Origin: a virus
Virus record (IMG/VR): IMGVR_UViG_3300020472_000097
Location: 1 to 32,445 of that record
DNA: 32,445 nucleotides
Direction: 5' to 3' (one strand)
Numbering within the stretch: the stretch's first letter is position 1; each line of letters starts with the position of its first letter. This document shows positions 15,601 through 30,543 of the stretch, piece after piece. Under the pieces are notes generated by a model, which saw only the letters and a program-made list of their open reading frames with translations, was not told the origin of the DNA and did no database searches. A program made the translations under genes and the position numbers.

Positions 15601-18600
15601 TAATAGGTGATTGTATAATATTATCAATTGCTATCAATCCTCTTGTATTTTCTTTCTTAGCAGTAATACTATGAGAAGATCCAATACCAACAGAAGTAAA
15701 ATCTAGAGGAACTATAATATTTTTTAATGCATTTTCTGCAGTAGTTGCAAGTTTAATAGAACTATCATTTACCTTAACAACGTAACATGTTTCTGGTATA
15801 TAAGTTATTGTTGCTCCAACTCCAGGGAAGTAAGTAGCAGCAATTCCAATAGAATCCCCAGTAGTTCCAATACCAGTTGTACTTGAACAACTAACAGCAG
15901 TTCTAACAGAATAATTAACTTCCTCACCAGTTACAAAATAATGGTTAGGTAATGAAATTGTATTATTCGTAAGATTAATAATATCCGTACTTGATCCATC
16001 AAAATTCTTTCTGAATACTGGATTACCGTTATGTTCTATATCAAACTCTGTTTTCTTATCATAAAATGTTCCACCATAAACATCCCAGGTACTTCTAACA
16101 GAACCACTATTAAGTTCTATTAGTTCTGGTTGAAGAGTATCTTCTTCAACTTTTAAAGCCTGAATAAATGTCTTAACTTCTACAGCAGCATTAGCATCTG
16201 GAGTATACATTACCTCAGATACACAATGATCTGTATTCCTAGATCCACTAATTGTACCTAATCCAATAAATGCACCAGCTCCAGTTTGTAGATTGCCATA
16301 TTCAGTAATAAAGACTGTATTATCATCATCTACCATCATAACTTCAGAAAATTCATATCTGTTGTTAGTAGTATCCTTAACTTGAACTAAAACATACGCA
16401 CCATCAAAATCGTTAGTATAGCTACCAATTCCAACTGCACTTGGTGAACTACTTGCAGGTATTGATGTGGATTTAGCTATCATTGAAGCATTTCTCAATG
16501 AATAAGTTCCAACACCCGTGAAGGATTCTGAAGAAATTCCAATACAAATTGAATTAATCCAAGCAGTTTGAATTCCTGCATTAGGAGTATACATGATATC
16601 AACCATAGCAGTGGTTCCTACACCAACTAAAGTAGGTTCAAAAGTTCCTAATGGTTGTGCTGCAAGATTATCTCTTCTATTATGAATTGCTAATTGACCA
16701 TATTCATGCCATTCAATATTTGTTCCATCATGAATAAGACTTAATTCGTCATATTCAACTGATCCTTCACTTGTTGCAATAGCAACTATAATCTTAGCAG
16801 ATCTGGGATTAAATAACTGATATTTTTCTGTACTGATGCCAGGTATACCAGGACGACTAGTTAAAGCAGCACCAGTAGTAGATCCATTACCAACAGTACA
16901 AATCTTAATTTGTTGACCACCAGTTCCTATAACATTAGATGCACCAATACTAACTAATGCACTTGGAGGTGCAGTTGATTCACCAATTGTCGTTTGACCT
17001 ATTGCAGTCAAAGATGTTGTCATTCCAAGTTCATCTAAGTTATAAGAAAGAGATATTACATTGTAATTGTTCTTTTCAGACTTGAGAGGGTGGAATTGAA
17101 GAATTGCATCAGTACCATCAACTGCGGTATCCATTTGACCTAGTTGAATAACACTATCAACAGAAGCATACTGATTAAGCATTGATTTCCCACTGATAGG
17201 ATCAAACAATGCATTAACCATCATAATTTGTCTTTCATCTGTATATAACCTATCCTTTACATATACAATAAACCTATTTTCCTTATTATTAGCAATATCA
17301 TACCTAGCAACTTCAGCCCAAGGTTCTTGTCTTGGTTTACTACTAAATTGATCACTAATATTATCAATTTTAAGAACCCTGTTACCAACAGATTCTGCAT
17401 AATCAATCAAAATACGGTTCTTAAAGGTGATTTCATCAGAAAGATTACCTTCTGCAGGATCCCTATCTTTAAAATTCTCCGTAACAAGGTCAAAATTAAC
17501 AACATCCCACAAACTATCCTCATTTTGGATATTAATAATTCCAGTAACAGTACCTGCAATACCAACCTTCATTGCCAACTTATCTTCTGGTGGAAGTGCT
17601 GATTCAACTTGAAGTTGACTAAACTTTTGGAACCCTGCAGTATGATTTAAACTATTGACAATATCCTTCCATCTATCATAGAAAACTCTAGACTTAATAG
17701 CATATGAGAAACTTTGATAGTACTCATTATCATGTACTTTCTGTAAACTATCATTCAAGAATCCTGTTTGATATTCCCACCCATTATTAACAATAGAATA
17801 GTAATCTAATAAGAAATTAGTATCAAATGTTAGAACAATTTCAGAAACATTTCCTTTAGCACCAGTTTCTAAAGATTCGATTAATTTACCAACTTCAAAA
17901 TCACTAGATGCTTCTACAGTCAACCACTTACTTTCTGGATCATATTCAAATGCAACACCTTGTACAGGACCAACACTAGTCTCTGATTTAAGAGTTTCAT
18001 TTGCATTGAAAGAGTTAAGTTTCAAAACAGGTGCAAATTGTGGGAAATCTCTTTCTCTAACCAATACTGCAGAAGATAAAGCAGTATCAAAGTTACCTGG
18101 TATTGCCCCAGAAGGAACTGTACCATTCATACTATAAGTTACAACACCAACGTTACCTAGGTTCTCGTGTATTTGAGTTACCTCGAATGACTGATAATCA
18201 TAATATTGAGAATCATAACCCCGACCAGTTGAACCAACACCAACACTGGCATTTTCAACAAACATCTTATCCCCAATTTCTATAGGGAATTCCTCTGTAA
18301 GACTATAAGCAACCTTTAATGTTGCAGCCACAGTATCCGTTGATACATCATATACAAGATTAGTTACTCTAATACCATTTGGATTCGCTACTGGAACAAT
18401 GACTGGAGTTACAGGAGATAATCCATAAGTATTTTGAATAATATCAACATATCCTGGATTATCTGGTGTTTCTAAATTATATCTTAGATCAACGTCTTCA
18501 ATTTTTTCTCTTGTTCTACCATCAAGCACAACCAAAGCGGGTGGTTGATTATATCCTCTACCATAAGAAGTAATACCAATAGATTCTAATCCAGATAGGG

Positions 18601-21600
18601 CCTCAATCTTAATAATCTGAGGGAGTTTAGATTGTGGTCTTAAAGTAAAATCGGATGGATAATCAAAACCAATATTGTCTATTTCTGTTGTTTTAGGTAC
18701 ACCAATTGTTCTACTAGAAGCTTCTAGAATAGCACCTGTACCAGAATCAGTAGTTACTGTAGATATTCCAGGTATTTTAGTATATCCCTTTCCTTTATCT
18801 GCAAGTGCAACATATGCAATAGGTCCATAAGCAGTTTTTGAAGTTGTCTCATAAGATATTTTTGTTGATACCGATGCAGTATATGATGCTACTTCTGGAT
18901 ACTCATCCAAATCATATTCAAAAGTATTATTAGAATTTGCAAGAACATCATAATTTCCAGCAAAACGACTTTCTCTAATGGAAATTGTATTATTCCCTAT
19001 AATTTTTGTATCTAGTACAAGTTCCTTATTAACTGCAGGGTTGTTATCTGATGTTGTTGGTACTACGTTATAATAAAGAATCTTAGGAGTATTTTCATTG
19101 TATGTTAATACTGCCTTTCCATCATCACCAATAGTTCCAGTCTGAACAAGTTCAAAAGTAGTTTCTAATCCATTTGAATCATATTCATGAATAAAATTAG
19201 AATCAGTATAAAGTTTAAACTCAAATCCAGGATACTTGGTAGCACCTACAGTATATCCTAAAGAAGAATCTGATAAATCAAAAGTTATAGTACCATTCTT
19301 ATAGAATTCTAATGGAGGATTAACTACATTAAGTACTCCTGAAGTTCCTGCATTAGCATCTGAAAGAGCAATGAAACTTGGTCTTCTTTGTTCTGTTTGG
19401 AACCTACTACCACAAAGTTTAATCTTATCTTTGTTAATAACATATGCAAAATACTGTCTATCATTAACAAGACCACCTATTGGATTAGATGAAGTATGAA
19501 TAACTATCTGACCAGTTACTAATCCATGATTAGTAATTGCAATTGCACTAGGAACTCCTTCTGATGCGACAGCAGTTGTAACACCTGCATTAGTAAAATC
19601 AAGAGTTTTTGCAACTAATTTTCTATTAGACTTATTATATTTTATTGGTACAGTTGAAGTAATTCCAGCATTTACAGTAATATAAACTCTATCATTATGC
19701 ATCAATCCATGTGTATCTCCTAGAGCAACAGTTACATTATTCTTTTCTGCTGAACCTGTTAATGTAGTAGGATATGAAGTCTTTAGACTATGATATGAAC
19801 CAGTTCCTATACCCAAGAAGTAAACAAGACCTTGATGCAATGTAGTTGCAGCAGTTCCTACAAAAATATCTGGAGAATTTGTTTGCCATTGATTTTTGTT
19901 TCCAGTTCCTGTACCTAGACCAACTCTAACAGTAGATAATCCAATTGAATCATCCGTCAATTTTGCAACATATAATGGAGTATTTTCAGGAAGATTTGTG
20001 GCATATGGATTAACTGCGTTTGTATTAGCAGCATTTGTTGCTATACCTATAGAATCTCCAGTATTTCTCTTATAAGTTACTGTATCTCCAGTTTTTAATT
20101 TATGTTGTGGAAGATATATCGACCTACTTGGAAGGAATATCTGAGATACTCCAGAACCTGGATTTTCAAATGTTATTGTTGTTCCAATTCCAACTCCAGC
20201 AACAGTACCTATACCAAGTGCTTCTTTTGGATTAAAATAGTATTCCTTCTCAACACGGCTATTTGCTGCAGTAGCAAAACCAACATCTATCGTAAATTTC
20301 CTAGGACGTTCTTCTATAACTGTTCTAATTGAATGATATACTCCAACCTGACCATCACCAGTCTGATCCATATCATTTGTATTTCTCAAAACTCTCAATC
20401 TATTAGATCCAGAATCTACATTCAGTACTTGAACTTCTTCACGTTTAGTTCCAATTCCAACACTTAAAATATCATTCTCTCTTATAGCAATAGTATTCAT
20501 CCTATCATTAGGATATGGTAATGTACCCTGAACACTAAAATAAGTAATTAATCCAGTTGCAGCAACTGATCCAATTCCTTGAGAAACAATCAATTTTGCT
20601 GAACTTATTCCAATATTATAAGTTCTACCACCAACACCTGAAGCAGTAGTAGACATTCCAGAAACATATATTTTATCAAGGTTTCTAAGACTAATTGGTG
20701 AAGTATGAACACCAATATAACTCTTATCACCACCACCTGGATAAAATTCAATATTCTCTAGTTGGGTATTAACTACAGAGATTGTTCCTACCCCTACTCC
20801 ACCAACTTTAGAAACTTTTGCTACAGCACCAAAATTCTCTTCTACCTTTTCTTCAAATATAACCTTATCACCAATTTGATAACTTGCTCCACCAGTTACG
20901 ATACCAACTTTATCTACTGCACCTTCTGCAGCATATAAAACTGTTGCTTCTTGAGTAATATACTTATAAGATTGCTTCAAATAATCATAATAACTATCAT
21001 CTTGAAGTAATTCATAAGGTTCTGTATTCCTAACCCAAACAGTACCATTTAAATCAATCTCATCTTGGTTATTCCTTGATAGTGTATTAAATTTATTTGG
21101 TTGAGCCCAATACTTATCACCTATCAAATATGGGAAAGCAGGTTTCTTATAATTGTTAAATGGATCATTAGCACCAGATGGTAACTGATTATTCTGAGTT
21201 ATTGTTTGATCAAATGTAGCAAAATATGCATATGTTCCTTTTGGATACTCTGGTGTAATACCAAATCTACCATTATTCGCATCTAAGTAACTTTCATTAG
21301 TATTATCATTCCAAGTAAAATCTTCTACAAAAAATTCTTGAGGGAAAATGGTTGTAGGAGGTCTATTTGCCTTCAAATCAAGAGAATAACCAGATTTAAG
21401 TTGAGCAATGTTTCCACCAGTACTCTTTTCATAACCATATGGTCCATAAATTGGAAGTCCATCATAAGCCCAACCAATAATTGGAGAATGATTTGATTTA
21501 TTTTCTTCAGTTGCACCATTCAATAAAGATAAATCCTTAGCACCATATAAAGGATTACCATTAGCATCATTCTGATAAACAACTTCCCTTAAACCTCTAG

Positions 21601-28389: not shown

Positions 28390-29157
28390 TTAAATAACAC
28401 GAGTTTTTTCGTGACCTACACGTATACGAGGATCCGCCCATATCTCATATCCAGCATCTTGTGCATCTAAACAGAATGAGACATCCTCACCACACATGTC
28501 TTGTACATCACCAGACTCAAAGACTTGCATCTTAGGAGCAAACCAAGGGTATTCAAGTTTCTCAAATACTCCATTCTTAATCATTACCCAACCAAAACCA
28601 GTATAATCGCAAGTAAAAGGTTTCTTACGCTTACCCATTGTTTCGACTGTCTCGTGATTCATAACTCCACCATTCTTACGGAAGTCATCTTCTTCAAGCC
28701 AATGTGCAATACTCGTAGTAGATCCATCCTCTGTTGCATACCATCCAGCAGCAATCTCTTTTTCATTACCTTCACCATCAACTGCTAGATCACATAACTG
28801 CCAGAACTTATTAGTATCAAATACTATGTCTGAGTCAATCCACAACTGATAGTCATATGTAAGTTTACCATCCCAAGGTATTTGCTTAGGTCCACGTAAT
28901 ACATTTGCACCTAATACCTTACAACGTGCAAAGTTAACCATAGAAGAGTAATCCTGAGATATTTGAATACTCATTCCATTCTGTACCATGTCAAAACATA
29001 ACTGTACAAAATTCTTAAGGAAGATATACGAACAACCTCTTCCTGGTAAACAGAAGACAATTGCTTTACCTCGCATTCTTTCTTTAATTGCATCAATATC
29101 CCATTCTGGGCCTTTTGTTTTTGGTGCAACTGTTTTTACTTTAAATCCTTTAGCCAT
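28390..29157 (-). CDS. GT-A-type glycosyltransferase-like protein
   Basis: The protein has the layout of a GT-A-fold nucleotide-sugar transferase: an N-terminal beta strand (KAIVFCLPGRG, residues 31-41), a long helix, a conserved arginine segment (NFARCKVLG), then LWIDSD with a DxD-type metal site (DSD, 108-110), an acceptor-side TGFGWVMIK (186-194), an acidic GEDVSF (223-228) and a late histidine (GHE, H249) that often completes metal binding. It has 255 residues. Substrate and donor cannot be told; it could modify virion proteins, DNA or host surface sugars. An overlapping early/late promoter (29181-29209) lies just upstream. It opens a four-gene chain with three micro-proteins and is separated from the structural block by a terminator. 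Confidence 0.75.
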   Translation of the reverse strand: MAKGFKVKTVAPKTKGPEWDIDAIKERMRGKAIVFCLPGRGCSYIFLKNFVQLCFDMVQNGMSIQISQDYSSMVNFARCKVLGANVLRGPKQIPWDGKLTYDYQLWIDSDIVFDTNKFWQLCDLAVDGEGNEKEIAAGWYATEDGSTTSIAHWLEEDDFRKNGGVMNHETVETMGKRKKPFTCDYTGFGWVMIKNGVFEKLEYPWFAPKMQVFESGDVQDMCGEDVSFCLDAQDAGYEIWADPRIRVGHEKTRVI

Positions 29158-29442: not shown

Positions 29443-29661
29443 TGGCCTCCGAAAATTTTTTTATATATGACCAAACCTAATAGGCGTTTTTTATGGCCAC
29501 AATTATTTTTTTTATATTGATATCTCTCTCTCGATTTGTCACCTCTGTAGGTTAGCAAAGCTGAATTTTCTAACACGCCCGCCGCCCGATAACAACGTAG
29601 GGGCATAAAACACTGCCAATACGCATCATCTACGCATGGCATATTAGCGATGCGTGAGTGT
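29443..29661 (-). other. Non-coding leader or possible RNA element before the 73-residue gene
   Basis: This stretch lies between an early promoter (29669-29697) and the 73-residue gene. It holds an unusually GC-rich pocket (about 29575-29592) within AT-rich DNA and a small dyad (GTTAG at 29552-29556, CTAAC further on). The only frame through it, 70 codons from 29642, overlaps the next gene by 13 bases and has no ribosome-binding site or recognisable sequence, so I do not call it a gene. A structured leader or small RNA is possible but not shown. Confidence 0.3.
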
Positions 29662-29723
29662 TACTATCATTCTATAATATCACACAGTAACTGTCAATAA
29701 CTGTCGATACGCATAGTAACACT
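29657..29723. repeat. 11-base inverted repeat around an early promoter
   Basis: AGTGTTACTAT (29657-29667) and its exact reverse complement ATAGTAACACT (29713-29723) flank the promoter at 29669-29697. Between them, ACAGTAACTGT (29684-29694) is itself a palindrome overlapping the -35 box. The arrangement looks like operator sites or a hairpin at the transcript start; no regulator is known. Confidence 0.55.
29669..29697 (-). promoter_or_regulatory. Sigma70-type early promoter upstream of the 73-residue gene
   Basis: The minus strand has TTGACA (29697-29692), a 17-base spacer and TAGAAT (29674-29669). Transcription would start near 29662, inside the left arm of the inverted repeat, leaving a leader of about 220 bases before the 73-residue gene. 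Confidence 0.65.
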
Positions 29724-29921: not shown

Positions 29922-29950
29922 ATTATACCATATTACCTTTTGACTGTCAA
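29922..29950 (-). promoter_or_regulatory. Perfect consensus sigma70 promoter (early)
   Basis: The minus strand has TTGACA (29950-29945), exactly 17 bases, then TATAAT (29927-29922). Both hexamers are perfect. It points to the 52-residue gene, whose ATG is at 29891. It should be used by unmodified host RNA polymerase immediately after infection. Confidence 0.85.
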
Positions 29951-30024
29951 TAACCGTATGTGTGCTATGTGTCATAATACGGTGATAATATGCAGGGGTT
30001 TTGTAACATTTTCCCGCCCCATAC

Positions 30025-30148: not shown

Positions 30149-30262
30149 TGTGGAAAACTATACAACACAGGGGTACTATTTATTTGACCATTTTAAATCG
30201 ATTATTAATACTTTTCCACAGATATTACACTGTTTTCGTTGTTATTCACAGTGTTTTCCACA
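30149..30262. other. Candidate replication origin: cluster of DnaA-box-like nonamers
   Basis: Within 114 bases there are three exact copies of TTTTCCACA (30149-30157 on the minus strand; 30212-30220 and 30254-30262 on the plus strand) and a TTATTCACA (30242-30250). The E. coli DnaA box is TTATCCACA, and TTTTCCACA is the form reported for cyanobacterial origins. An AT-rich stretch (about 30177-30215) lies between the boxes and could serve as an unwinding element. An ATAAATA motif on the minus strand (30177-30183) is also present. The whole gap 29892-30345 contains no gene I can support. Origin function is inference. Confidence 0.5.
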
Positions 30263-30282: not shown

Positions 30283-30309
30283 TGCCCCCACTGAGTAACA
30301 ATGAGGGCA
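30283..30309 (-). terminator. Hairpin, weak terminator after the 65-residue gene
   Basis: On the minus strand TGCCCTCAT (30309-30301) pairs with GTGGGGGCA (30291-30283), with two G-T pairs and a 9-base loop, followed by ATTTGTTGT. The stem is GC-rich but the U tract is poor, so it may be a terminator or a boundary structure next to the candidate origin. Confidence 0.4.
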
Positions 30310-30345: not shown

Positions 30346-30543
30346 TTAATCATACCCAAATTCTTTACTCATTATACCTCTTAATTCTCTTACTTCATCA
30401 TCACTTATTGAGTACAAATATTGATCAATAATTACCTCTAATAGACTGTGTGATTGTGGGTCTTGATTAATAACGATCTCCAGTAAATCCTTCGTTATAA
30501 GTTGTGCATCAGACGGGGTTAATTTGTTCTGTTTCGTTATCAT
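30346..30543 (-). CDS. Small protein of unknown function (65 aa)
   Basis: The protein starts MITKQNKLTPSDAQLITKDL and ends GIMSKEFGYD. It is predicted to be helical, with acidic segments (SISDDEVRELRGIM). The ATG directly follows the TAA of the gene upstream, and its strong ribosome-binding site (GAGGAGG) is encoded by that gene's last codons, so the two are coupled. No family is recognised. It is the last gene before the candidate origin. Confidence 0.75.
   Translation of the reverse strand: MITKQNKLTPSDAQLITKDLLEIVINQDPQSHSLLEVIIDQYLYSISDDEVRELRGIMSKEFGYD

Follow-up and report, generated by a model that had tools for sequence, protein, structure and literature searches.

Replication of T4-type phages is generally regarded as independent of DnaA at its start, and the T4 origins oriF, oriG and oriE are transcript-primed and have no DnaA boxes. 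Why, then, does the genome of a T4-like cyanophage carry a compact group of sequences that match the DnaA box of cyanobacteria? T4-like cyanophages are among the most abundant marine viruses, and DnaA-dependent origins of plasmids and of some phages are already known. On how T4-like cyanophages start replication, one review offers no more than a predicted single theta origin, that of Syn9 (PMC2984593). Host DnaA boxes arrayed at a conserved position provide a precise, testable origin candidate, which, if true, would link phage replication to the host initiator and hence to the host cell cycle. Our literature search found no paper reporting DnaA boxes in cyanophages; the Syn9 genome paper (Weigele 2007) may have noted them.

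A cluster of exact DnaA boxes in a T4-like cyanophage fragment

The locus lies in a viral contig fragment of 32,445 bases (the window), whose genes include gp25, gp6, gp8, a neck protein and Kyano_Gp96. Because these T4-like baseplate and neck genes have Kyanoviridae relatives, the window was assigned to a T4-like cyanophage (Kyanoviridae), with Bellamy, S-SM2 and SynMITS9220M01 as its nearest named phages. Pattern counting in the window confirmed the three exact copies of TTTTCCACA and one copy of TTATTCACA at 30149-30262 (Table 1). The sequence TTTTCCACA is the cyanobacterial DnaA-box consensus and is bound in vitro by domain IV of Cyanothece DnaA (PMC4674748). All three exact copies in the window are located inside this interval, with none elsewhere, while dinucleotide shuffles of the window contained a mean of 0.64 copies; three copies were reached in 3 of 100 whole-window shuffles (largest count, 4), and at the shuffle rate the number of triplets expected within 114 bp works out at about 1e-6. 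A 13-nt inverted repeat (30149-30161 and 30208-30220) spans the first two exact boxes, and the 63-bp spacing of these divergent boxes is also found in the related loci L004, L009 and L010.

The description of the site as a gene-free gap proved acceptable, since the ORFs between 29443 and 30345 have no PHROG match. The small ORF beside the boxes (30346-30543, minus strand) matched nothing in PHROG below E 0.1 and nothing in Pfam, and small hypothetical ORFs are annotated across the boxes in some relatives (S-SM2, Syn9). An Rfam search of the gap returned chance-level matches only, with no known RNA family. Besides the boxes, a repeat scan of the site found no iteron-like repeat family, and inspection by eye revealed no DnaA-trio-like repeat beside them.

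Table 1. Coordinates of the elements at the box array of the window and of the box clusters in named phages
Genome	Feature	Coordinates	Strand	Remarks
Window	phrog_1574 gene	28390-29157		Neighbour of the box cluster
Window	Conserved single-copy element	29536-29556	-	CCCTAACCTACAGAGGTGACAAATCGA in relatives, CTAACCTACAGAGGTGACAAA in the window
Window	Sigma-70-type promoter	29922-29950	-	TTGACA-17-TATAAT, extended -10; perfect, 12/12
Window	DnaA box, exact cyanobacterial consensus TTTTCCACA	30149-30157	-	63 bp to next box
Window	AT-rich segment, candidate unwinding region	30173-30213	.	Between divergent boxes
Window	DnaA box, exact TTTTCCACA	30212-30220	+	Forms inverted repeat with box at 30149
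Window	Weaker DnaA box TTATTCACA	30242-30250	+	Tandem with box at 30254; start-to-start distance 12 bp, gap 3 bp
Window	DnaA box, exact TTTTCCACA	30254-30262	+	42 bp (4 turns) from box at 30212
Window	Intrinsic-terminator-like hairpin with T-run	30283-30309	-	Ends small gene 30346-30543 just before the boxes
Syn9	Box cluster	52553-52597		Upstream of gp25; sole cluster in genome
S-PM2	Box cluster	19231-19264		Upstream of gp25
Syn19	Box cluster	50629-50668		Upstream of gp25
S-SM2	Box cluster	58064-58093		Upstream of gp25
P-TIM68	Box cluster	58194-58216		Upstream of gp25

Position and conservation of the array among relatives

To define the relatives, we used 80 viral contigs encoding phrog_1574. 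Within 3 kb upstream of this gene, TTTTCCACA was present in 69 copies in 150 kb, compared with 5 copies in 700 kb elsewhere; with a limit of 3.2 kb, the counts were 71 and 3, an enrichment of about 90-fold. The best of the one-mismatch variants was enriched about 10-fold and most were near 1, indicating conservation of the cyanobacterial consensus in its exact form. An unbiased k-mer count returned TTTTCCACA as the top multi-copy 9-mer in the related loci, and two boxes within 160 bp were present in 14 of the 36 loci that have at least 2 kb of sequence upstream, versus 2 of 7,200 shuffles. We also scanned the whole viral collection in a gene-blind manner for the pattern TTTTCCACA-N(3-8)-TGTGGAAAA; this inverted box pair was found in at least 120 stretches of viral contigs, versus 9 in all for the reversed pattern used as a control. 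The motif is short and a few whole-window shuffles do reach three copies, but the shuffle, enrichment and reversed-control counts refute chance clustering in AT-rich non-coding DNA, the probability of which we regard as negligible.

Analysis of 80 loci from the inverted-pair matches identified 61 as T4-like cyanophages, a call made when at least two ORFs matched T4-like cyanophage genomes. Every locus with the baseplate gene gp25 in range has the inverted pair about 2-10 kb upstream of it, and loci with the UvsW-like helicase gene in range all have the pair downstream of that gene; in many T4-like cyanophages the array site is between these two genes. Whole-record box scans of 20 named phages located clusters in the five phages listed in Table 1, and no TTTTCCACA pair in T4, pelagiphage HTVC008M or podovirus P-SSP7. 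In this pre-set test, the window count and the named-phage scans agreed with the expectation that TTTTCCACA is concentrated at the cluster and not evenly spread.

The expected conservation in relatives held for the position, which is fixed wherever the array is present, but not for its presence: the cluster was found nowhere in 7 of the 12 isolate cyanomyovirus genomes scanned in full, most of which share the gene neighbourhood. The array therefore cannot be a universal essential origin. The cultured relatives without it include Bellamy, P-SSM4 and S-CAM9, forming a natural comparison with the array-bearing Syn9, S-PM2, Syn19, S-SM2 and P-TIM68. A genome-wide repeat scan of array-less phages found no replacement iterons at the array site. 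In S-CAM9 (NC_031922.1), an 11-copy repeat (around CCCTTCTGACC) was observed near 31.57 kb, and a weak 4-copy repeat (around GAGCACTTTAC) near 45,029, between the helicase and gp25.

Several further observations were made in these scans. The inverted box pair is also carried by viral contigs other than T4-like cyanophages (L375, L394, L397, L391 and others among L371-L450), some of which encode ribonucleotide reductase, and L394 encodes a DUF7178 protein with best matches in cyanopodoviruses. In S-PM2 (NC_006820.1), the tRNA genes annotated at 17414-19333 were not recovered by ARAGORN, which finds no tRNA at the boxes, and an assignment of the boxes to annotated tRNAs was rejected. The tRNA T-arm-like repeats of this phage cluster near 118.8 kb, and there may be a shift in the coordinates of its annotated tRNAs.

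Box architecture and comparison with known systems

Among 22 non-redundant clusters, which were not selected on spacing, boxes of the same direction are separated by 12, 20-22, 31, 42 and 53 bp, with helical phasing at 10.5 bp (R = 0.88; none of 20,000 random sets was as high). Arrays of 3-7 boxes occur, and the 12-bp tandem with its 3-bp gap is common to the window, Syn9 and S-PM2. In E. coli, the paired boxes that DnaA favours in vivo are those with a gap of 2-3 bp (PMC11317965). The spacing and orientation of the phage boxes fit a cooperative assembly of DnaA.

The idea that cyanobacterial origins use the same box was correct for Prochlorococcus, but not for marine Synechococcus in general. 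Low-GC Prochlorococcus-type genomes carry an identical TTTTCCACA upstream of dnaN (oriC), whereas the exact box at dnaN is absent from most marine Synechococcus genomes, which have few exact copies and instead carry the relaxed TTTTCCAC followed by G, C or T; exact boxes at dnaN were thus rejected as a general rule for marine Synechococcus. Of 25 Synechococcus genomes, 24 have dnaA. The Bac_DnaA_C domain (DnaA DNA-binding) was absent from all 17 cyanophage genomes searched, so a phage-encoded DnaA was rejected, and any DnaA acting on the array would be that of the host. We consider it very likely, judging from the sequence of the boxes, that the array is a set of binding sites for host DnaA, and such a closely spaced set at one fixed place hints that these viruses either exploit the host protein or sequester it.

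The P1 oriR, pSC101 and F origins combine host DnaA boxes with iterons for their own Rep protein. The phage array resembles them as a mobile element carrying host DnaA boxes, and differs from them in that no iterons were found at it and its carrier is T4-like, with a replisome of its own. In common with T4 oriF, oriG and oriE, the proposed origin adjoins a promoter and is accompanied by the gp59 helicase-loading machinery, whereas the T4 genome has no TTTTCCACA pair. Cyanobacterial oriC regions (Prochlorococcus; Cyanothece 51142, PMC4674748) contain the same TTTTCCACA boxes, clustered and in both orientations, and in the Cyanothece oligonucleotide two boxes are separated by 11 bp (PMC4674748), similar to the 11-12 bp tandems of the phages. 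The phage array differs in being carried by a lytic phage and in not lying beside dnaN; it has fewer boxes than many oriCs, and no conserved unwinding element or DnaA-trio was found at it. The compact grouping of boxes outside oriC, with 2-3 bp gap tandems, is similar to E. coli datA, DARS and double DnaA boxes (PMC11317965, PMC12371093); these E. coli sites are chromosomal regulatory loci, whereas the phage array occupies a fixed syntenic position on an infecting genome.

Duplex instability and GC skew

The AT-rich stretch noted between the boxes in the original prediction is present in the window and reaches the 99.6th percentile for 40-bp instability, but as a whole segment it is not unusual in comparison with random window segments (P = 0.13). 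With the search range accounted for, duplex instability near the boxes was unusual only in S-PM2 (P = 0.003), the values being 0.10 in Syn9, 0.08 in S-SM2, 0.77 in Syn19 and 0.76 in P-TIM68. Skew analysis found no GC-skew switch at the array, contrary to the change expected there. The skew follows one-directional coding, which dominates it, and is similar in array-less phages; the result counts against an origin or is uninformative, and it lends an origin no support.

Possible functions of the array

The gp59 protein is a T4-type helicase loader that needs no DnaA, and it is encoded by these phages. The part of the original origin reading that stood is the binding of host DnaA, which the sequence strongly supports; origin function, and with it the choice among an origin, promoter control and titration, is something we infer, because the array is often absent (7 of 12 isolates), no skew switch was found, the AT-rich stretch is not reliably unusual and gp59 is encoded. 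Our leading, though tentative, reading of its function is a host-DnaA-dependent replication origin. Host DnaA would bind the box array cooperatively and, early in infection, may open or remodel the DNA there, perhaps with assistance from transcription that starts at the neighbouring host-type promoter. Helicase loading, by phage gp59/gp41 or host DnaB, would be the next step, and a first theta-type round of replication would precede the takeover by T4-style recombination-dependent replication. Syn9, whose genome has exactly one box cluster, is reported to have a predicted single theta origin (Weigele 2007, as cited in PMC2984593). With a little more reserve, we propose that many T4-like cyanophages might start replication at one fixed host-DnaA-dependent theta-type origin, that DnaA-independence might not be general to T4-like phages, and that phages with and without the array might differ in how replication starts.

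Alternatively, DnaA could act as a transcription factor or roadblock on strong host-type promoters downstream of the array, tying early gp25-ward transcription to the DnaA status of the host. Across 86 clusters, forward sigma-70-like promoters in the first 300 bp downstream occurred at 1.91/kb versus a background of 0.46/kb (about 4-fold), and NATAAATA late-promoter-like motifs near clusters numbered 17 versus 6.0 expected; the window itself has a perfect promoter pointing toward gp25, and regulatory double boxes away from oriC are among the sites bound by DnaA in E. coli (PMC11317965). However, the window promoter is about 200 bp past the boxes, which is far for simple repression or activation, and arrays of 3-7 boxes exceed the typical regulatory double box; we regard this function as somewhat unlikely. 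A datA-like decoy, which would titrate host DnaA and thereby halt initiation on the host chromosome as phage copies build up, would require neither a fixed genomic position nor a neighbouring promoter, yet both are conserved, and there are few boxes per genome early in infection. Exact consensus boxes imply high affinity, phage copy number would turn few boxes into many, an array that some phages have and others lack suits an accessory trait, and in E. coli there is support for the titration of DnaA on DNA (PMC12371093); on balance we consider a decoy unlikely. Less probable again is that the 9-mer is the site of another phage- or host-encoded protein that shares the sequence by coincidence. 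DnaA binding is deduced from the sequence, and marine Synechococcus oriC regions have few exact TTTTCCACA copies; against such a coincidence, the 9-mer is identical to the cyanobacterial DnaA consensus and to the box of Prochlorococcus oriC, variants are not tolerated, and helical phasing and tandem pairs with 2-3 bp gaps are typical of DnaA.

Other elements near the array

The search for terminator-like hairpins found the one listed in Table 1, compared with 1.0 expected by chance. Two 36-bp direct repeats (29669-29704 and 29922-29957) each contain a near-perfect minus-strand sigma-70-type promoter. The non-coding CCCTAACCTACAGAGGTGACAAATCGA element occurs in almost unchanged form in 61 of the 80 related loci and is absent elsewhere, with exact copies in S-SM2 (58852), SynMITS9220M01 (50335), Bellamy (73828), S-SCSM1 (2197) and P-TIM68 (58338), and it has no Rfam match. 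Because a conserved ATAT(C/A)A box, an A/T run and, in many cases, a ribosome-binding site come after it, it is probably a separate promoter or leader element of the small gene before phrog_1574. In most loci, a G/C-rich stretch adjoins CCCTAACCTACAGAGGTGACAAATCGA on its upstream side (about 29560-29640 in the window). This stretch consists of short blocks (GGCGG, GCGTTG, TTGTT and TTATCG) in an order that varies from phage to phage, and it looks hypervariable through block shuffling.
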